Positions 30,000 through 44,366 of a stretch of DNA of 64,000 bases are shown one piece after another; positions within the stretch are counted from its first letter, which is position 1, and each line of letters begins with the position of its first letter. The stretch covers positions 1,798,001 to 1,862,000 of the forward strand of contig NZ_CP041656.2 in NCBI RefSeq assembly GCF_007290395.2. Reading direction: 5' to 3'. The position numbers and the translations under genes were made by a program. The stretch comes from Bradyrhizobium cosmicum. GTDB lineage: Bacteria; Pseudomonadota; Alphaproteobacteria; Rhizobiales; Xanthobacteraceae. The notes under the pieces were generated by a model. It saw only the letters and a program-made list of their open reading frames with translations, did not search any database and was not told the DNA's origin.

Positions 30000-30635
30000 C
30001 TACTTCGGCCGATACGCCGCCAGGAACATCCGCGTCGCGCTGTCCACCACTTCGGTCATGCGCTCCTCCGACGGCGCGGGCGCGGCCTGGAACACGAAAG
30101 GCAGGAAGAGCGAGGCCTTGCACAGTTCCATGAACTGCGAGGCCGCCAGATCGCAATCGTCGATGGTGAGATCGCCGGAGGCAACATGGGCTTTGAGATA
30201 GTCCGACAGACGGTTGATGGTCTTGTCCAGCACGCGTCCATAATAGCGGCGGCCGACGTCAGGCATGCGCTCCGCAATCGCCATGACGGTGCGGATCGCC
30301 GATCCGCCGCCGGGCCGGCAGAGCAGGTGGATGTAGGCCCGGCCAAAATCCGTCAGCGTCGTCTCGGCATCGCGAGCGTGGTCGAAATTGAAAGCGACCT
30401 GGCCGTAATCGAGCGCCTCCTGTTCGAGGATGGCTTCGAACAGCGCGCATTTGTCGGCGAAGTAGACGTAGAGCGTACCCTTGGAGACGGCGGCCGCGCG
30501 CGCGATCTCGCCCATGCTGGCGCCGTCAAAACCGAGATCCATGAACACCTTGCGGGCCCCGTCCAGGATCTGGCGGCGCTTGGAGCTGTCCTCCTCTTGG
30601 AGGACGTGCAGATGTTCGCGGCCGGCTACAACCAT
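30000..30635 (-). CDS. TetR-family transcriptional regulator
   Basis: 211-residue repressor-type regulator. The N-terminal helix-turn-helix reads RQILDGARKVFMDLGFDGASMGEIARAAAVSKGTLYVYFADKCALFEAIL, classic for TetR. The C-terminal ligand-binding half is of the AcrR/TetR_C type (YIHLLCRPGGGSAIRTVMAIAERMPDVGRRYYG). The ATG at 30633-30635 is my choice; an ATG at 30675-30677 would add 14 residues. It is divergent from an HlyD/MFS efflux pair, with a perfect operator-like palindrome in the intergenic region, so it probably represses that pump and is induced by one of its substrates. Confidence 0.9.
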   Translation of the reverse strand: MVVAGREHLHVLQEEDSSKRRQILDGARKVFMDLGFDGASMGEIARAAAVSKGTLYVYFADKCALFEAILEQEALDYGQVAFNFDHARDAETTLTDFGRAYIHLLCRPGGGSAIRTVMAIAERMPDVGRRYYGRVLDKTINRLSDYLKAHVASGDLTIDDCDLAASQFMELCKASLFLPFVFQAAPAPSEERMTEVVDSATRMFLAAYRPK

Positions 30636-30732
30636 TGGTTCAGCGTCTCGGAAGGTTTTGGATCGGGCCCAAACCATGAAACCCAAATAAAGGATTCGGG
30701 CCAGTACGGTCCGCTCGGGTATATTATCTATA

Positions 30733-30753
30733 TTGACCGAACCGTTCGGTCAA
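30733..30753. promoter_or_regulatory. TetR-type operator
   Basis: Perfect inverted repeat with arms TTGACCGAAC and GTTCGGTCAA around one central base. It lies between the divergent TetR gene and the HlyD gene, 78 bp before the latter. Arms of the TTGACCG/CGGTCAA kind are typical for TetR-family repressors of efflux pumps. Confidence 0.75.
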
Positions 30754-30830
30754 TGGTATTTGGGATAGGCGAGAGGGAAACCGGCCGCATAACGGCCGTC
30801 CTTGATCGCGCTATTTTTGGGGAGGCCTTT

Positions 30831-32150
30831 ATGGCCGTATCGAGAGACCAGGCTGCGCGCGTTCTTCGCCAGGAAGCGGTGGAGACGACGGCGGAGCAGG
30901 CGGGCAGTGACGTGACAACCGGAAAGTCCGCCGCGCTTGCCGAGCAGTTGCGCTCTCATGTGGCCGAGGAAGCCAAGCGCCGCGGCGAGGCGCCGGAGAA
31001 GCCCGTGACCGACAAGCCGGCCCCCGATGCAGCCGCGCCCGGCGCGCCTGCCGCCGGCAAGTCCGGCAAGCGCAAATTCGTCATGATGGGCATCGGCCTC
31101 GTGCTGGCGCTCGCGGCAGCCGGCTATGCCGGCTATTACACGCTGGTCGGCCGCTTCTATGTCTCGACCGACGACGCCTATGTCCGCGCCAACAACACCA
31201 TGCTGGGCGCGCGTGTCGCCGGCCACATCTCCTCGATCCTCGCCGGCGACAACACGTCGGTGCGCGCGGGCGACATCGTCCTGCGCATCGACGACGGCGA
31301 CTACAAGATCGCCGTCGATGCCGCCACGACGAAGATCGCGACCCAGCAGGCCACCATCGATCGCATCGGCCGACAGGTCGCCGCGCTCGACAGCCAGGTC
31401 GCGCAGGCCAAGGCGCAGCTGGTCTCGGCTGAGGCGGGCCTCAAGCGCGCAGACCTCGATTATGAGCGCCAGCAGGCACTGAACAGCAAGGGCTTTGCCT
31501 CGCGGGCGGTGTTCGAAACTTCGGAAGCCGGACGCGACCAGGGCGCCGCCGCGGTCAAGGCCGCGCAGGCCGCTTACGATGTCGCCGTCAGCAATGTCGA
31601 TGTCGCCAAGGCACAGCAGGCCGAAGCGCAGGCGCAGCTCGCCGAGCTCAAGACCTCGCTCGCCAAGGCCGAGCGCGATCTTGCCTTCACCGCCGTGCGT
31701 GCGCCGGTCGACGGTGTCTTCTCCAACCGTCTCGTCAGTGCCGGCGACTTCGTCGCTGTCGGTCAGCGGCTCGGCAATGTCGTGCCGCTCGACAATGTCT
31801 ATATCGACGCCAACTTCAAGGAAACGCAGTTGAAGCGCATCCGTCCCGGTCAGCCCGTGACGATCAAGGTCGATGCCTACGGCATGCGCAAGTTCTCCGG
31901 CGTCGTCGACAGCATCGCGGCGGGCTCGGGCTCGGTGTTCACGCTGCTGCCGCCCGACAACGCCACCGGCAACTTCACCAAGATCGTGCAGCGCGTGCCG
32001 GTCCGCATCCGCGTGCCGAAATCGGTCGCCAGGCAGAACCTGCTGCGTGCGGGCATGTCGGTCTATGCGACGGTCGACACCAACAAGGGCGCAGCCGACG
32101 CAGACAGCGAGATTGATCTCGACGATCCCACCATGGTCCATCCGCAATAA
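30831..32150 (+). CDS. HlyD/EmrA-family membrane fusion protein
   Basis: 439-residue periplasmic adaptor of a tripartite efflux pump. A cytoplasmic N-terminus of about 85 residues, rich in Ala, Glu and Lys, precedes the membrane helix (FVMMGIGLVLALAAAGYAGYY). The barrel-sandwich part is TDDAYVRANNTMLGARVAGHISSILAGDNTSVRAGDIVLRID. Long coiled-coil hairpins follow (QVAALDSQVAQAKAQLVSAEAGLKRADLDYERQQAL). VRAPVDGVFSNRLVSAGDFV and NVYIDANFKETQLKRIRPGQPVTIKVDAY are typical EmrA features. Start ATG 30831 follows GGGGAGG. It is followed by the matching MFS pump gene. The unusually long cytoplasmic tail is noteworthy. Confidence 0.9.
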   Translation: MAVSRDQAARVLRQEAVETTAEQAGSDVTTGKSAALAEQLRSHVAEEAKRRGEAPEKPVTDKPAPDAAAPGAPAAGKSGKRKFVMMGIGLVLALAAAGYAGYYTLVGRFYVSTDDAYVRANNTMLGARVAGHISSILAGDNTSVRAGDIVLRIDDGDYKIAVDAATTKIATQQATIDRIGRQVAALDSQVAQAKAQLVSAEAGLKRADLDYERQQALNSKGFASRAVFETSEAGRDQGAAAVKAAQAAYDVAVSNVDVAKAQQAEAQAQLAELKTSLAKAERDLAFTAVRAPVDGVFSNRLVSAGDFVAVGQRLGNVVPLDNVYIDANFKETQLKRIRPGQPVTIKVDAYGMRKFSGVVDSIAAGSGSVFTLLPPDNATGNFTKIVQRVPVRIRVPKSVARQNLLRAGMSVYATVDTNKGAADADSEIDLDDPTMVHPQ

Positions 32151-32195
32151 GCGCTGTGACATGAGCCGCGCCGCCGCGTCGAATGCAGGTGCGCA

Positions 32196-32303
32196 CCCTC
32201 TCCCGCTTGCGGGAGAGGGTGTCTCCGCATTGGGACAATCCCCAAGCGGAAAGAACCCTCACCCGGCGCTTCGCGCCGACCTCTCCCGCTTGCGGGAGAG
32301 GTG
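32196..32303. repeat. Intergenic palindromic repeat (family A)
   Basis: CCCTCTCCCGCTTGCGGGAG occurs once at each end of a 108-bp element, with AACCCTCACCCGGCGCTTCG between. It separates the HlyD and MFS genes of one operon, 37 bp before the MFS start. Confidence 0.8.
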
Positions 32304-32340
32304 CATCCAATCCGCAGCGTGCTCTAACCCGAGCTGAACA

Positions 32341-33924
32341 ATGGCCACCGCCACCACCGCCTCGCCTGACATGATGGCGAACCCCGCTTCGGAGCGCATC
32401 GCGCCGAAGCGGCTGTTCGCCTTCATCATCATGGTGTTCGGGATGTTCATGTCGATCCTGGACATCCAGATCGTCTCGGCATCCCTCAGCGAAATCCAGG
32501 CCGGACTGTCGGCCAGCTCCAGCGAAGTCGCCTGGGTCCAGACCGCCTATCTGATCGCCGAAGTCATCGCGATCCCGCTGTCGGGATTCCTGTCGCGCGC
32601 TTTCGGCACCCGGTTGTTGTTCGCGATCTCGGCGGCCGGCTTCACGGTTTCGAGCCTGCTTTGCGGCTTTGCCACCACTATCGAGGAGATGATCCTCTGG
32701 CGCGCGCTGCAGGGCTTCCTGGGCGCCGGCATGATCCCGACGGTGTTCGCCTCGGCCTATACCGTGTTCCCGCGCTCCAAATTCCATATCGTAGGTCCCA
32801 TCATCGGCCTCGTTGCGACGCTCGCGCCGACCATCGGGCCGACGGTCGGCGGCTACATCACCGACCTGATGTCGTGGAACTGGCTGTTCTTCATCAACGT
32901 CGTGCCCGGCATCGGCATCACCATCGGCGTGCTGGCGCTCGTTGATTTCGACGAGCCGCATTTCGAACTGCTCGACCGTTTCGACTGGTGGGGCCTGACG
33001 TTCATGGCCGGCTTCCTCGGCACGCTGGAATACGTGCTGGAGGAAGGTCCGCTCCATGCGTGGATGCAGGATACGTCCGTTGCGATCTGCGCCTGGATCT
33101 GCGCGATCTCGGCGATCGCCTTCTTCTGGCGCGTGTTCACGGCGGCCGAGCCGATCGTGAATTTGCGCACCTTCTCCAATCGCAATTTTGCGATCGGCTG
33201 CGTGCTGCAGTTCTGCATCGGCATCGGTCTCTACGGCCTGACCTACATCTATCCGCGCTACCTCGCCGAGGTGCGCGGCTACAGCGCGCTGATGATCGGC
33301 GAGACCATGTTCGTCTCCGGCATCACCATGTTCCTGATCGCGCCGCTGGTCGGCCGGCTGATGGTGAAGGTCGACATGCGCTACATGATCGCGTTCGGGC
33401 TGATCGTGTTCGCGATCGGCTCCTACCAGATGACATGGATCACCCGGGACTACGATTTCTACGAGCTGCTGATCCCGCAGATCCTGCGCGGCGTCGGCAT
33501 GATGTTCGCGATGGTCCCGACCAACAATATCGCGCTCGGCACGCTGGCGCCGGACAGGGTGAAGAACGCGAGCGGCCTCTTTAACCTGATGCGCAATCTC
33601 GGCGGCGCCGTGGGCCTGGCCGTCATCAACACCGTGCTCAACGACCGTACTGATCTGCACATCACCCGCCTCCAGGAGCGCGTCACCTGGGGCAATACGA
33701 CCGCGACCGAAACCCTGACCATGCTGCAGCAGAAGTTCCAGGGTCTCGGCGATGCCTCGCTGATGGCGATGAAGCAGCTCAGCCAGATCGTGCACCGCCA
33801 GGCCGTGGTGATGGGCTTTGGCGATGCGTTCTTCGTGCTCACGGTGTTTTATCTCGGCCTCAGCCTCCTGGTCACGCTGCTGAACAAGCCGGCGTCGCTG
33901 ACCGGCGGCGGCGACGCGCATTGA
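32341..33924 (+). CDS. MFS multidrug efflux transporter, EmrB/QacA (DHA2) type
   Basis: 527-residue inner-membrane drug:H+ antiporter with about 14 helices. Family signatures are VFGMFMSILDIQIVSASLSEIQAGLSAS (helix 1 with conserved Asp), AYLIAEVIAIPLSGFLSRAFGTRLLF (motif A region), and LQGFLGAGMIPTVFASAYTVFP with TIGPTVGGYITD (motif C) further on. It pairs with the upstream HlyD adaptor as an EmrAB-type tripartite pump exporting toxic compounds through an outer-membrane channel encoded elsewhere. It is controlled, by inference, by the divergent TetR protein. Confidence 0.92.
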   Translation: MATATTASPDMMANPASERIAPKRLFAFIIMVFGMFMSILDIQIVSASLSEIQAGLSASSSEVAWVQTAYLIAEVIAIPLSGFLSRAFGTRLLFAISAAGFTVSSLLCGFATTIEEMILWRALQGFLGAGMIPTVFASAYTVFPRSKFHIVGPIIGLVATLAPTIGPTVGGYITDLMSWNWLFFINVVPGIGITIGVLALVDFDEPHFELLDRFDWWGLTFMAGFLGTLEYVLEEGPLHAWMQDTSVAICAWICAISAIAFFWRVFTAAEPIVNLRTFSNRNFAIGCVLQFCIGIGLYGLTYIYPRYLAEVRGYSALMIGETMFVSGITMFLIAPLVGRLMVKVDMRYMIAFGLIVFAIGSYQMTWITRDYDFYELLIPQILRGVGMMFAMVPTNNIALGTLAPDRVKNASGLFNLMRNLGGAVGLAVINTVLNDRTDLHITRLQERVTWGNTTATETLTMLQQKFQGLGDASLMAMKQLSQIVHRQAVVMGFGDAFFVLTVFYLGLSLLVTLLNKPASLTGGGDAH

Positions 33925-34040: not shown

Positions 34041-34118
34041 AGCGGCGCTTTGCGAGGTCCTCCGTTCGAAGGAGCGGACCAAATTGCAACACTCGTCCGT
34101 GATCTTGCGCCGGCCCCG

Positions 34119-34147
34119 TTGCAAACCGAAAACGACACATCTATAAA
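34119..34147 (+). promoter_or_regulatory. Probable sigma-70-type promoter of the leader ORF and efflux genes
   Basis: TTGCAA (34119-34124), a 17-bp spacer and TATAAA (34142-34147). Transcription would start near 34154, about 30 bases before the leader ORF. Confidence 0.55.
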
Positions 34148-34183
34148 GCGCACCTCATTCATTCGAACCGAGAGGAGATTTGC

Positions 34184-34258
34184 ATGATTTCGTCGCATTC
34201 GCAGATCGTCCGCCCGCGCTCGATGATGTTCTGGCTCGGTATCTGCTCGACCTCCTAG
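34184..34258 (+). CDS. 24-residue leader peptide ORF
   Basis: A short ATG-to-TAG ORF directly behind a near-consensus GAGAGGAGA ribosome-binding site. The product starts MISSHSQIVRPRS and ends MMFWLGICSTS. It lies on the leader of the ABC exporter mRNA, with 152 bp of structured RNA between its stop and the exporter ATG. Its placement behind a promoter and a strong ribosome-binding site, with no other gene in the 486-bp gap, points to a regulatory leader peptide whose stalled translation alters downstream folding. That mechanism is an inference. A pump gene downstream is typical for antibiotic-inducible leader peptides. Confidence 0.5.
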   Translation: MISSHSQIVRPRSMMFWLGICSTS

Positions 34259-34343
34259 AGGTCCTTTCCGCCAGCTTCGATTGGGCTCCAAGTCCCGATC
34301 GCTCCGCTTCCCAAGTCAAAATCAGTCTCAAGTGACGCCGTTT

Positions 34344-34402
34344 CGGCCCTCGTGGCCGGCCTGTGTCCATCGATGGAGCCGGCCCGCGCCAAAAGCGGCC
34401 GG
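34344..34402 (+). promoter_or_regulatory. Alternative hairpins ahead of the ABC exporter start (candidate attenuator)
   Basis: Stem 1 pairs CGGCC with GGCCG (34344-34358). Stem 2 pairs CCGGCCCGC with GCGGCCGG (34379-34402) around an AAAA-containing loop, with one bulged base, and ends eight bases before the ATG at 34411. All four arms share the CGGCC/GGCCG core, so they can re-pair exclusively. No T-tract follows, so control would act on translation. Confidence 0.4.
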
Positions 34403-34410
34403 ATGATGCC

Positions 34411-36210
34411 ATGACCGCTCTGTCAAAAAAGCCCGCGGCGATACGCGTGGTGCTGCCTTTCGTGTTCCGGCACTGGCTGAAGCAGCCGGGGCGCACGCTC
34501 GTCATCGTCGGCAGCGTGTTGGGGGCGACCGCCGCCGACCTGTTCATGCCGGTGTTCTCCGGACATTTGATCGACGCGCTGACGCACGGTCCGTCCGATC
34601 CGGATGCGCGCCACGCGGCACTGGTCGCGTTCGGCGCCATCGTGGCGCTGGGCGCGGCGTCGATGGTGCTGCGGCTGGCAGGCCTGCAGGCGATCGTGCC
34701 GTTCACGCTGAAGATCATGTCCGAGGTTGCGCAGGACGCATTCGTGCGCGTGCAGCGCTTCTCGACCGACTGGCACGCCAACTCGTTCGCCGGCTCCACC
34801 GTGCGCAAGATCACGCGCGGCATGTGGGCGCTCGACCTGCTCAACGACACCATCCTGCTGGCGCTGCTGCCTTCGCTGATCGTGCTGATCGGGTCGGTGA
34901 TCCTGCTCGGCGCGCATTGGGCCTCGCTTGGCGCGGTGATCGCGCTCGGCGCGCTGGCCTATGTCACGATGACGGTGCTGTTCTCGACGCGATACATCGC
35001 GCCGGCTGCGCGAATCTCCAATGCCTGGGACACCAAGGTCGGCGGCACGCTGGCGGATGCGCTGACCTGCAACGCCGTGGTGAAATCCTTCGGTGCCGAA
35101 ATGCGCGAGGATTCGCGGCTCGCGCACGTCATCAATCGCTGGCGCGTGCGGGTGCGGCGGACGTGGTTTCGCTACAACTACACCGCCATGGCGCAGCTCT
35201 CGATGCTGTTATGCCTGCGGGGGTCCGTGATCGGCGGGGCGGTGCTGCTGTGGATGTCCGGGCACGCTTCGCCCGGCGACGTCACTTACGTGCTGACGAG
35301 CTATTACGTCATTCACGCCTATCTGCGCGACGTCGGCATGCACTTCAACAACCTCCAGCGCTCGGTCAACGACATGGAGGAGCTGGTGTCGATTCATGAC
35401 GAGCCGATCGGCATTGCCGATGCGGCCGACGCGCGGCCGATCGTCATCGAGGGCGGCCAGATCGTGTTCGACGACGTCACGTTCCACTATGGCGGCCATC
35501 GCGCGCCGCTCTACGACGGGCTGTCGCTGACGATCCGCGCCGGCGAACGGGTTGGCCTCGTCGGCCGCTCCGGCTCCGGCAAGACGACCTTCGTCAAGCT
35601 GGTGCAGCGGCTCTACGACGTCTCCGGCGGCCGCGTGCTGATCGACGGGCAGGACATCGCGCTGGCGACGCAGCAATCGCTGCGCAGCCAGATCGCGATC
35701 GTGCAGCAGGACCCGATCCTGTTCCACCGGACGCTCGCCGAGAACATCGCTTACGGCCGGCCCGGCGCCAGCCTCGAGGCGATCGAGCAGGCGGCGCGGC
35801 TGGCAAACGCGCACGACTTCATCCTGCGCCTGCCGAAGGGCTACGGCACCCTGGTTGGCGAGCGCGGGGTGAAGCTGTCGGGCGGCGAACGGCAGCGCGT
35901 CGCGCTGGCGCGTGCCTTCCTGGCGGACGCGCCGGTGCTGATCCTGGACGAGGCAACCTCGAGTCTCGATTCGGAATCGGAGGCGCTGATCCAGCAGGCG
36001 ATGGAGCGGCTGATGAAGGGCCGCACCTCGATCGTGATCGCGCACCGGCTGTCGACGGTGCGCAGCCTCGACCGGATCCTGGTGTTCGACCGCGGCGAGA
36101 TCGTCGAGCAGGGCACCCATGCCATGCTCGCGGGCAAGCCAGGGGGACTCTATCGCGGCCTGTTCGAGCGCCAGGTCGTGGAGCTCGGACGCATCGTAGC
36201 GGCGGAATGA
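34411..36210 (+). CDS. ABC-type exporter, fused membrane and ATPase domains
   Basis: 599-residue half-transporter of the MsbA/multidrug exporter kind. The N-terminal membrane domain (residues about 20-310) has six helices, including TLVIVGSVLGATAADLFMPVFS, HAALVAFGAIVALGAASMVLRLAG and LLALLPSLIVLIGSVILLG. The nucleotide-binding domain has Walker A GRSGSGKTT, signature LSGGERQRVALARAF and Walker B VLILDEATSSLDSE. I chose ATG 34411; a GTG at 34363 would place the hairpin inside the gene. No strong ribosome-binding site precedes either, which fits a structured, regulated leader. The MATE pump gene follows after 54 bp. Confidence 0.88.
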   Translation: MTALSKKPAAIRVVLPFVFRHWLKQPGRTLVIVGSVLGATAADLFMPVFSGHLIDALTHGPSDPDARHAALVAFGAIVALGAASMVLRLAGLQAIVPFTLKIMSEVAQDAFVRVQRFSTDWHANSFAGSTVRKITRGMWALDLLNDTILLALLPSLIVLIGSVILLGAHWASLGAVIALGALAYVTMTVLFSTRYIAPAARISNAWDTKVGGTLADALTCNAVVKSFGAEMREDSRLAHVINRWRVRVRRTWFRYNYTAMAQLSMLLCLRGSVIGGAVLLWMSGHASPGDVTYVLTSYYVIHAYLRDVGMHFNNLQRSVNDMEELVSIHDEPIGIADAADARPIVIEGGQIVFDDVTFHYGGHRAPLYDGLSLTIRAGERVGLVGRSGSGKTTFVKLVQRLYDVSGGRVLIDGQDIALATQQSLRSQIAIVQQDPILFHRTLAENIAYGRPGASLEAIEQAARLANAHDFILRLPKGYGTLVGERGVKLSGGERQRVALARAFLADAPVLILDEATSSLDSESEALIQQAMERLMKGRTSIVIAHRLSTVRSLDRILVFDRGEIVEQGTHAMLAGKPGGLYRGLFERQVVELGRIVAAE

Positions 36211-36264: not shown

Positions 36265-37668
36265 ATGAAGGACCTGACACGCGACTCCATCGTGAGCCAT
36301 ATCCTGCAGATGTCGCCCCCGATCATGGCCGGCATGGTCACGATCATGATCTGCCAGCTGGTCGATTTGTACTTCGTTTCGGGGCTGGGCGATGCGGCGG
36401 TCGCAGGCGTCGCCGCGGCCGGCAATGCCGGCTTTCTCGTCAACGCCCTGATGCAGGTGCTCGGCGTCGGCACGGTGGCGCTGATGGCGCATGCCGTGGG
36501 GCGCAAGGACCGCAGCGATGCCAATCTGATCTTCAACCAGTCGGTCGCCCTGTCGGTGCTGTTCGGGCTGCTGACCCTGGTCGCGGGTTTTGCGCTGTCG
36601 CGCCCCTATATGCGCGCGGTAGCGGCCGACGAAGCCACGGTCGAGGCCGGAACCGTCTATCTGCTCTGGTTCATGCCCGCGCTGGCTCTGCAATTCGCCT
36701 CGCAGGTGATGGCGTCCGCGTTGCGGGCGACCGGCATCGTGCGTCCGAGCATGCTGGTGCAGGCGCTGGCCGTAGCGATCAACATCGCGCTGGCGCCGGT
36801 GCTGATTTCGGGCTGGGGCACCGGGTATGCGCTCGGCGTCGCCGGTGCGGGCCTTGCCAGCTCGATCGCCGTGTTCATCGGCGTGCTGATGCTGCTCGGG
36901 TATTTCCTCAGGCTGGAGCGTTACGTCGCTTTCCATGCCGCGCAATGGCGTCCGCAGCTTCGGCAGTGGAAGAGAATCCTCAATGTCGGCCTGCCCGCGG
37001 GCGGCGAGTTCGTGATGGTCTTCATCATCGTGGCAGTGGGCTATTACGTGCTGAGCGTTTTCGGCCCGGCGGCGCAGGCCGGATTTGGCATCGGGATGCG
37101 TGTCCTTGGCCTGATCCAGATGCCGGCGCTCGCCGTCGCCCTCGCCGCAGGGCCGATTGCCGGCCAGAACTTCGGCGCCGGCAATGGCGTGCGGGTGCGG
37201 GAGACCTTCGTCAAGGCCGCGCTTATCGCCACCGCCGTGATGGTCGCTCTGCTGATCCCCGCGCAGCTCGCGCCGGGTCTGCTGCTGGCCGGCTTCTCGA
37301 ACGATCGGGAGACCATGGCGGTCGCCTCGCTGTTTCTGCGGATCGTCTCGCTCAACATGGTGGCGCAGGGGCTGATCTTCACCTGCTCCAGCATGTTCCA
37401 GGGGCTCGGCAATACCAAGCCGGTGTTGTGGACCTCGGCAACGCGGGTCCTCACGTATTCCCTGCCGTCGATCTGGCTCTCGACGTGGCCAGGCTTCCGG
37501 ATGGAGCACGTATGGTATTTGTCGATCGCAACGACAACGCTGCAGGCCGCCCTGAGTGTCTGGTCGCTGCGCCGCGAGTTCGACAAGCGCCTTGCATTGT
37601 CGCCGCAGGAGACGGCTGTGGAGCCATTGGTCGTCGAGCCGGCCGCGCCGCTCCGTGAGCCCGCGTGA
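36265..37668 (+). CDS. MATE-family multidrug efflux transporter
   Basis: 467-residue inner-membrane antiporter with 12 predicted helices in two similar halves. Typical features are MSPPIMAGMVTIMICQLVDLYFVSGLGDAAVAGVAAAGNAGFLV at the first helices and VGLPAGGEFVMVFIIVAVGYYVLSVFGPAAQAGFGIGMRVL in the second half. MATE pumps export cationic drugs or organic compounds using Na+ or H+. It lies 54 bp after the ABC exporter on the same strand and is probably in the same transcript. The product therefore pairs an ATP-driven and an ion-driven pump under one leader. Confidence 0.9.
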   Translation: MKDLTRDSIVSHILQMSPPIMAGMVTIMICQLVDLYFVSGLGDAAVAGVAAAGNAGFLVNALMQVLGVGTVALMAHAVGRKDRSDANLIFNQSVALSVLFGLLTLVAGFALSRPYMRAVAADEATVEAGTVYLLWFMPALALQFASQVMASALRATGIVRPSMLVQALAVAINIALAPVLISGWGTGYALGVAGAGLASSIAVFIGVLMLLGYFLRLERYVAFHAAQWRPQLRQWKRILNVGLPAGGEFVMVFIIVAVGYYVLSVFGPAAQAGFGIGMRVLGLIQMPALAVALAAGPIAGQNFGAGNGVRVRETFVKAALIATAVMVALLIPAQLAPGLLLAGFSNDRETMAVASLFLRIVSLNMVAQGLIFTCSSMFQGLGNTKPVLWTSATRVLTYSLPSIWLSTWPGFRMEHVWYLSIATTTLQAALSVWSLRREFDKRLALSPQETAVEPLVVEPAAPLREPA

Positions 37669-43875: not shown

Positions 43876-43882
43876 TTTAGAA

Positions 43883-44366
43883 TATCAGCCGGCCTGTAAG
43901 CCGGGTTCTGTAAGGCACCGTCCGCTTGCGCGCACGATACGTGACGGCCATTCCTCTGGGACCATGTTTGCACATGGCCTCGAGCAACCTACCCGGACGG
44001 CGGGCCTGACATCGCCCCGCGGCGTTATCGCTTGCGCGAACAGCCCGCTATGCCGTCCCTATTCGGTTTTGCTCCCGGTGGGGTTTACCATGCCGGCTCC
44101 GTTGCCGGAGCCGCGGTGCGCTCTTACCGCACCTTTTCACCCTTACCCGCCTACGCTGCTTGCGCAGCTTCGGCGCGGCGAGCCTTGCGGGCTTGTCGCG
44201 CCATAGCCCCGAAGGGGCGACGGCGGGCGGTTCGTTCTCTGTGGCACTTTCCCTGGGGTTGCCCCCGCCGGACGTTATCCGGCACCGTATGTCAAGGGAG
44301 CCCGGACTTTCCTCCCCGGCGGCCTTTCGACCGTTGCCGGAGCGGCCGTCCGGCCGACTGACGGGC
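43883..44366 (-). ncRNA. rnpB: RNase P RNA (catalytic subunit)
   Basis: On the minus strand the region starts with GACGGCCGCTCCGGCAACGG and continues with GAGGAAAGTCCGGGCTCCCT, the universal P4 entry of bacterial RNase P RNA. Near the 3' end come the conserved GGGTAGGTTGCTCGAGG and ACAGAACCCGGCTTACAGGC, which close the molecule. GGTAAACCCCACCGGGAGCA forms the core between. The length of about 480 bases is somewhat long for the alphaproteobacterial type-A RNA, which has variable P12/P17-type extensions. The ends are approximate. No protein-coding gene overlaps it convincingly. It processes the 5' leader of pre-tRNAs. Confidence 0.92.

Follow-up and report, generated by a model that had tools for sequence, protein, structure and literature searches.

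A conserved leader reading frame and a hairpin-split ribosome-binding site upstream of an ABC exporter gene in Bradyrhizobium cosmicum

What do a short open reading frame (ORF) and a series of GC-rich hairpins contribute when they stand between a promoter and the start of an ABC exporter gene? The question is raised by positions 34119-34410 of a Bradyrhizobium cosmicum sequence (contig NZ_CP041656.2, positions 1,798,001 to 1,862,000; the whole stretch of 64,000 nucleotides (nt) that was analysed is called the window, and positions are counted from its first letter). Judged from its sequence, this region is the promoter and 5' leader of the exporter gene. A first-pass annotation had proposed that the leader, as a candidate leader-peptide attenuator, senses a drug or translation stress and turns on the exporter together with a neighbouring MATE pump. 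The elements which it described were confirmed as present: the promoter-like boxes TTGCAA-N17-TATAAA, a ribosome-binding site (RBS), a 24-codon ORF at 34184-34258, and GC-rich hairpins with CGGCC/GGCCG arms, of which the last ends at 34402, 8 nt before the exporter ATG at 34411. Based on comparison with relatives, a conserved leader ORF and a split Shine-Dalgarno (SD) sequence are indicated with high confidence, and the chances that leader translation controls the exporter appear about even.

The leader ORF (plus strand, as are all features of the leader and exporter) starts with the ATG at 34184, ends with the TAG at 34256-34258 and encodes the peptide MISSHSQIVRPRSMMFWLGICSTS. It is preceded by the SD region GAGAGGAGA at 34170-34178, with GGAG at 34174-34177; the segment up to the leader ATG spans 34170-34183, and its last seven nucleotides, GAUUUGC at -7 to -1, are 97-100% invariant in 88 genus rows. 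Counted from the listed matches, 140 genomes match the DNA out of the 146 searched in the genus, a number that includes the window's own. The match is near full length in 75 relatives, where it starts at window positions 34066-34081, while many of the remaining genus matches begin just upstream of the leader SD or at the hairpin before the exporter ATG. From the genus, 89 relatives selected for matching the DNA were fetched, and all 89 carry an SD-preceded leader ORF (88 by script; L059 was missed by the anchor and found separately). In the 90 genus rows the leader DNA occurs in 84 versions and the peptide in 82, with one row (L078) mis-picked: its conserved leader is present, but a wrong 63-nt ORF was carried into the comparison behind the indel and P2 results and into the peptide, P1 and spacer statistics. 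Stop codon included, the genus leaders measure 66, 69, 72, 75, 81, 87 or 102 nt, seven lengths which are all in frame. A conserved motif downstream of the leader was located in 81 sequences, and in 75 of these it follows the stop at an offset of 10 nt. The spacer from leader stop to exporter has lengths spread over all three classes modulo 3 (41, 22 and 21). In one relative (L086:339-642, alignment columns 38-82) a 15-nt unit, or five codons, consisting of TATTCGCAGA plus 5 nt, is tripled in tandem with the frame intact.

Of 104 loci outside the genus, 96 were identified as having a leader ORF with a strong SD, where shuffled upstream DNA gave a mean of 3.1; L168, L169, L230 and L244 were excluded from this count as duplicates or genus members. 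The loci in which the finder reported no leader are L134, L151, L161, L174, L184, L186, L187 and L232, and in L134 and L174 a leader with a weaker SD is visible by eye. The ORF precedes the exporter in many Hyphomicrobiales as well as in Sphingomonas, Paraburkholderia, Achromobacter and Steroidobacter. The claim of a conserved leader before an efflux-type ABC exporter is therefore upheld, completely among the fetched genus relatives and beyond chance outside the genus, and this ORF of a structured 5' leader is real and conserved and probably translated.

The exporter start proved to be organised differently from the initial description, according to which its ATG lacks a good RBS. An SD does exist, GGAG at 34375-34378, as the 5' half of a split RBS. 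It abuts the 5' foot of a hairpin, P5 (34379-34402), supported by covariation, and a spacer of 8 nt (34403-34410), gap-free in the 90 genus rows and in the near-row alignment, separates P5 from the ATG. The SD-ATG distance is 32 nt in linear RNA and 8 nt with the hairpin folded, and P5 is accordingly predicted to bring GGAG to working distance from the ATG. The P5 alignment holds 60 of 71 clustered sequences, all distinct; L059, L142, L143, L145-L149, L153, L156 and L161 were omitted, and their other hairpin types are covered by a rule-based count of the layout only. In these 60 sequences 91.4% of cells are paired and both sides have changed at five of eight pairs, a number reached in 0 of 500 shuffles. 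The SD-hairpin-ATG layout with a stem of at least 4 base pairs (bp) was found in 36 of 42 representatives, which were drawn from 191 exporter starts and are related sequences rather than independent events. Among 520 control genes 23 had it, and shuffled exporters averaged 1.9 of 42. For stems of at least 6 bp the corresponding figures were 29 of 42, 8 of 520 and a mean of 0.5 of 42. The control genes of the layout, spacer and leader-ORF counts are mechanical ORFs with unverified starts, and those of the leader-ORF count include exporters.

Other genera have different hairpins at a similar spacing to the ATG (6-10 nt, mostly 8 or 9). Orthologues in other genera of the family and in other families of the order are likewise preceded by the split layout, which was identified in Bosea, Mesorhizobium, Ensifer/Sinorhizobium, Microvirga, Kaistia, Sphingomonas, Azospirillum and Steroidobacter; in the two betaproteobacterial genera, Achromobacter and Paraburkholderia, a hairpin and an SD are visible by eye and the automatic rule was not passed. 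Across the family, folding the RBS one sequence at a time gave only a mild advantage over shuffles, with z between -0.1 and -3.5 and mostly above -2. Two other views of the start were rejected. Translation from the GTG at 34363 was discarded because relatives have indels not divisible by three in 34363-34411, which indicates that the stretch is non-coding, and a coupling mini-ORF, ATGATGCCATGA, overlapping the exporter start was discarded because relatives have GATAACG, GACGAGG and other sequences in its place.

Which property of the leader is conserved, the peptide or the RNA, was examined from the proportions of nonsynonymous and synonymous changes (pN/pS). In the 41 near relatives with 24-codon leaders, pN/pS was 1.00 for codons 2-14 and 1.17 for codons 15-24, compared with 0.18 for exporter codons 13-70 of the same 41 genomes. 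The pS of the leader, 0.077 for codons 2-14 and 0.169 for codons 15-24, was far below the 0.350 of the exporter. A pN/pS near one combined with a low pS points to constraint on the RNA and the frame more than on the residues, and the lack of residue-level selection within the genus weighs against a specific arrest peptide. Of the 84 distinct genus leaders, 56 retain R10 and 77 retain R12, and no peptide sequence common to all genera was found. These results speak against sensing by the peptide as first proposed.

Comparative support was likewise obtained for the helices of the leader RNA. P2 to P5 (36 pairs) were tested on 58 near rows, with repeated leader DNAs dropped and L059 left out; 96.8% of cells are standard pairs, and both sides have changed at 8 pairs, against a shuffled mean of 2.1 and with 0 of 500 shuffles as high. 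Support by compensatory changes is best for P2 inner, P3 and P5. Helix P2 (34231-34274) has an outer part, 34231-34235/34270-34274, with 94.1% of cells paired and no both-side change, and an inner part, 34249-34253/34259-34263, with 95.1% paired and both-side changes at three of five pairs; the leader stop codon sits in its apical loop. P3 (34279-34300) is formed by GAUUGGG at 34279-34285 and CCCGAUC at 34294-34300, with 97.6% of cells paired and both-side changes at two of eight pairs. In P4 (34334-34367), outer GACGC (34334-34338) and GUGUC (34363-34367) are 95.5% paired without a both-side change, and inner CGGCC (34344-34348) and GGCCG (34354-34358) are 96.9% paired with such a change at one of five pairs. 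Whether the peptide's C-terminus and the paired arms co-vary had been raised as a check at the outset: within the genus the arms do co-vary (P2 inner, P3, P4 inner and P5) and the frame is kept, and the C-terminal codons have the pN/pS of 1.17 given above. Single-sequence folding of four window pieces was unremarkable (z -1.79, +1.02, -0.85 and -1.32), so that the structural evidence is comparative.

A further candidate helix, P1 (34177-34207), was taken from consensus folds and pairs GAUUUGC at 34177-34183 with GCAGAUC at 34201-34207. Its arms are near-invariant in the genus. It would mask the leader's own SD and hold the leader AUG in its loop, and the P1 segment of the window folds worse than shuffles (z +1.02). 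Among 63 cluster representatives, 21 had a pairing of leader SD and leader ORF that placed in the top 10% relative to controls, but the mean helix-length rank was 0.475 and the window's own rank 0.52; with this mixed outcome P1 was not retained as a general mask of the leader SD. An exchange of P2 arms with P4/P5 arms through the CGGCC core was also rejected, the far clade rewriting P2 and changing P4/P5 much less.

The reading which we prefer, and rate a little short of even on these comparisons, is that of an old attenuator-type leader in which the passage of ribosomes, not the peptide, sets exporter output. The leader ORF would be translated, and ribosome passage or density on it would decide the amount of full-length, translatable exporter mRNA; with faltering leader translation or termination, the mRNA downstream of the leader stop would behave differently. 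The likeliest effector would be Rho-dependent termination in the C-rich spacer, followed by refolding around P4/P5, and the exporter would then be made via the split SD. The cue is likely to be translation stress or a toxic compound removed by the exporter, with polyamines as an alternative. The spacer between leader stop and RBS has a C content of 0.362 and a G content of 0.271, compared with 0.318 and 0.316 in control upstream regions. This C-over-G bias and the mdtU-mdtJI precedent discussed below are the support for the Rho step, which is the weakest of the proposal, and confidence in Rho in particular is low. No terminator-like site was found in 34050-34460.

Several observations weigh against control by ribosome passage. 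The C-over-G bias is modest, the spacers having a mean rank of 0.248 among controls and the window's own a rank of 0.166. In folding models the accessibility of the exporter RBS barely depends on ribosome position, and after clustering the leader segments are no more complementary than expected by chance to the SD, to the P5 arms or to the region of the ATG; among the 158 unclustered sequences, which are dominated by the genus, mean z values in some segments lay between -0.3 and -0.8, with the strongest immediately upstream of the SD. The contrast in selection is weaker in the far clade, where leader pN/pS was 1.00 and 0.77 against an exporter value of 0.56 that is possibly inflated by unaligned indels at the exporter start. 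The residues may not be wholly free, as a loose [ILVMF]-A..P..R resemblance is seen in 14 of 86 non-genus leaders, a P-R spacing is mildly enriched (30 of 63 representatives against 23.2, standard deviation 3.7) and a basic last residue (R, K or H) is strongly enriched (28 of 63 against 10.8, standard deviation 2.7). In six of 11 Bradyrhizobium loci, all chosen as divergent, the exporter is present but no leader can be recognised (L205, L217, L222, L223, L225 and L226), and part of the spread of the element is shared ancestry. The leader stop is UAG in 33 of 57 cluster representatives compared with 28% of 786 control ORFs, and this excess together with the basic last residue hints that termination at the leader matters. 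It was also observed that the UAG is often followed by GUC or UUC, and that leaders outside Bradyrhizobium frequently end in R or H.

The ribosome-position models were equilibrium foldings of 45 of the 90 genus sequences (32 near, 13 far). In them the exporter RBS is partly masked by the RNA upstream, with modelled opening costs of 8.9 kcal/mol (near group) and 6.2 kcal/mol (far group), compared with 5.0 and 4.2 kcal/mol when the RBS is isolated. Blocking 30 nt with a ribosome at initiation, at codon 9, 13 or 17 or at the stop shifted the mean cost by -0.82 to +0.13 kcal/mol in the near group and by -0.77 to +0.74 kcal/mol in the far group, and deletion of the whole leader shifted it by 0.20 on average. 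The proposal of a buried start freed by a stalled ribosome thus retains its first half, the partial masking, and loses its second, with mean changes below 1 kcal/mol and the lack of complementarity after clustering. A switch driven by ribosome position was rejected, since folding, deletion series and long-range complementarity gave no consistent one.

An unlikely alternative, and the one which survives best, is that the split SD itself is the sensor, the stability of P5 being set by polyamines, Mg2+, temperature, a bound protein or a small RNA, and the leader ORF being secondary, serving to protect the mRNA or to load ribosomes. No other element of the locus is kept as strongly as the SD-hairpin-ATG layout, as this explanation would have it. 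Moreover, 34363-34367 could pair either with the 5' arm of P4 at 34334-34338 or with 34405-34409 in the spacer beside the exporter ATG, and both pairings are fully possible in 53 of 62 near sequences (a count in which L027, L042 and L044 took a wrong 5-mer) and in 12 of 27 far sequences. The pairing with the spacer, however, has no compensatory changes, and no more than 13 of the 27 far sequences allow it completely; possible as it is in most near sequences, this GCGUC switch between P4 and the pre-ATG spacer was rejected as a candidate. P5 is GC-rich and looks constitutively folded, and the conserved leader ORF is left unexplained. In E. coli, mRNAs whose SD is distant are a target of polyamines, which act by way of a bulged hairpin (PMC7177335).

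That the leader encodes a drug-sensing arrest peptide is distinctly improbable. An inhibitor would stall the ribosome at a leader sequence such as R-P-R, the RNA would refold and the exporter start would be freed. R-P-R corresponds to the macrolide +X+ motif. Motifs of the form R/K-x-R/K occur in 101 of 170 leaders against 32.6 in shuffled ones, and in 21 of 63 cluster representatives against 14.8 (standard deviation 3.0; 7 of 300 shuffles as high). These motifs, the basic last residue and the [ILVMF]-A..P..R resemblance described above are what such a peptide could produce, and the partial masking of the exporter RBS and the efflux-like nature of the downstream gene would suit it as well. Against it stand the lack of amino-acid-level selection in the genus, the retention of R10 and R12 in no more than the numbers stated, the lack of a peptide sequence shared by all genera, and the absence of stall-dependent unmasking in the models and of leader-RBS complementarity after clustering. 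Runs of one residue are short, the longest in the 170 leaders being 4 (one leader) and 3 (two leaders), with 1-2 in the others.

That there is no regulation at all, the leader ORF and hairpins only setting a basal level of translation, would fit the six divergent loci without a recognisable leader but is very unlikely, given that leader ORF and split SD are kept over large distances despite full sequence turnover. Five of those six loci have also lost the split SD, as judged by eye, and two further loci of the 11 (L227 and L229) have a degraded leader.

The promoter-like boxes, read from the sequence, are TTGCAA at 34119-34124 and TATAAA at 34142-34147, separated by 17 nt (34119-34147). TTGCAAA and CATyTATAA are near-invariant in the genus alignment, so the boxes are conserved within the genus; a rule-based sigma-70 promoter search did not report them. 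A second TTGCAA, also upstream of the leader, lies at 34084-34089; this copy is common among near Bradyrhizobium sequences, and none of the far rows displayed in the alignment has it. The 34084/34119 pair is possibly an operator for a transcription factor.

The exporter (34411-36210) is a half-transporter of 599 amino acids with domain matches to PF00664 (ABC_membrane) and PF00005 (ABC_tran). Among the best 25 of its 188 NCBIfam matches, none reached the curated cut-off. Among the matches listed, its orthologue group scores at least 757 bits and the next matches at most 571. The downstream gene (36265-37668, plus strand) encodes a MATE family transporter; of 39 Bradyrhizobium loci 21 have it next to the exporter, and of 41 loci from other genera none (tblastn, E 1e-8, within the fetched flanks, as for EmrB below). 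The leader belongs to the exporter alone and the MATE gene is outside the conserved unit, so that joint control of the two pumps, as first suggested, is not the point of the element. EmrB precedes the exporter in 29 of 39 Bradyrhizobium loci and in Afipia. In the window, the region 30000-33924 just upstream of the leader contains a gene for a TetR/AefR-like regulator on the strand opposite to EmrA- and EmrB-like genes, and an RNase P class A RNA (Rfam RF00010, 289.5 bits) was identified at 43881-44361 on the minus strand. At the leader site Rfam gave no match at the gathering score and three sub-threshold matches with E up to 10. In Sinorhizobium meliloti the exporter lies on pSymB between exoZ-galE and queCDE. 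No description of the leader was found in the open-access literature, the search not extending to subscription papers and supplements, and the locus is not named in the available text of a study of the S. meliloti small proteome (PMC10117765).

Each part of this arrangement has precedent; for the combination, its spread and its sequence turnover none was found in the open-access literature. A trpL-type amino-acid attenuator has a codon run for one amino acid and an intrinsic terminator, neither of which was found in the leaders and the region given above. In the antibiotic-inducible ermC, cat, bmrB-bmrCD and msrD attenuators, too, a gene for resistance or efflux follows a short ORF with a strong SD; unlike in those systems, peptide-specific selection and mutually exclusive pairing of the RBS were not found here. 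The upstream ORF in a long 5' untranslated region of an exporter gene recalls E. coli mdtU-mdtJI, a tested case in which an ORF of 34 codons with its stop 106 nt upstream controls a spermidine exporter and Rho is implicated (PMC7815308). The transporter is of a different kind, and in E. coli the C-terminus of MdtU is its best conserved part and lies over RNA that is predicted to base-pair with the RBS of mdtJI; neither feature holds here. mRNAs of the E. coli polyamine modulon (PMC7177335) share an SD distant from the AUG with structure in between, and differ from the regular GC-rich hairpin and leader ORF of the present locus.

The closest counterparts of the exporter start are genes 38 and 25 of phage T4, in which a hairpin shortens the SD-AUG distance from 22 to 5 nt and from 27 to 11 nt, and T4 mutants indicate that the intervening hairpin helps initiation (PMC3014915). 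That review states that more distant T4 relatives do not have the gene 25 arrangement; the layout before the exporter, by comparison, appears to survive replacement of the hairpin sequence. As in the phage genes, an SD which is too distant would be bridged by a hairpin, here from 32 to 8 nt. In contrast to them, the predicted split site of the exporter is chromosomal and occurs in several bacterial families together with an upstream leader ORF. We know of no earlier deeply conserved split-SD system in cells, and in the portions of the literature available the split SDs found in print are those of the two T4 genes. It is put forward only tentatively, as a possibility with the odds somewhat against it, that two ribosome-reading devices gate the exporter, a leader ORF which measures ribosome traffic independently of its peptide and an SD bridged by a hairpin, both kept across proteobacterial classes despite replacement of the peptide and hairpin sequences. 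If true, the free residues and fixed frame would make a clean case of ribosome passage controlling an efflux gene without a stalling peptide, for which the orthologue on S. meliloti pSymB offers a tractable host, and, next to the two phage genes, the split SD of this exporter family in many Alphaproteobacteria, and more loosely in some Beta- and Gammaproteobacteria, would represent a long-lived design.

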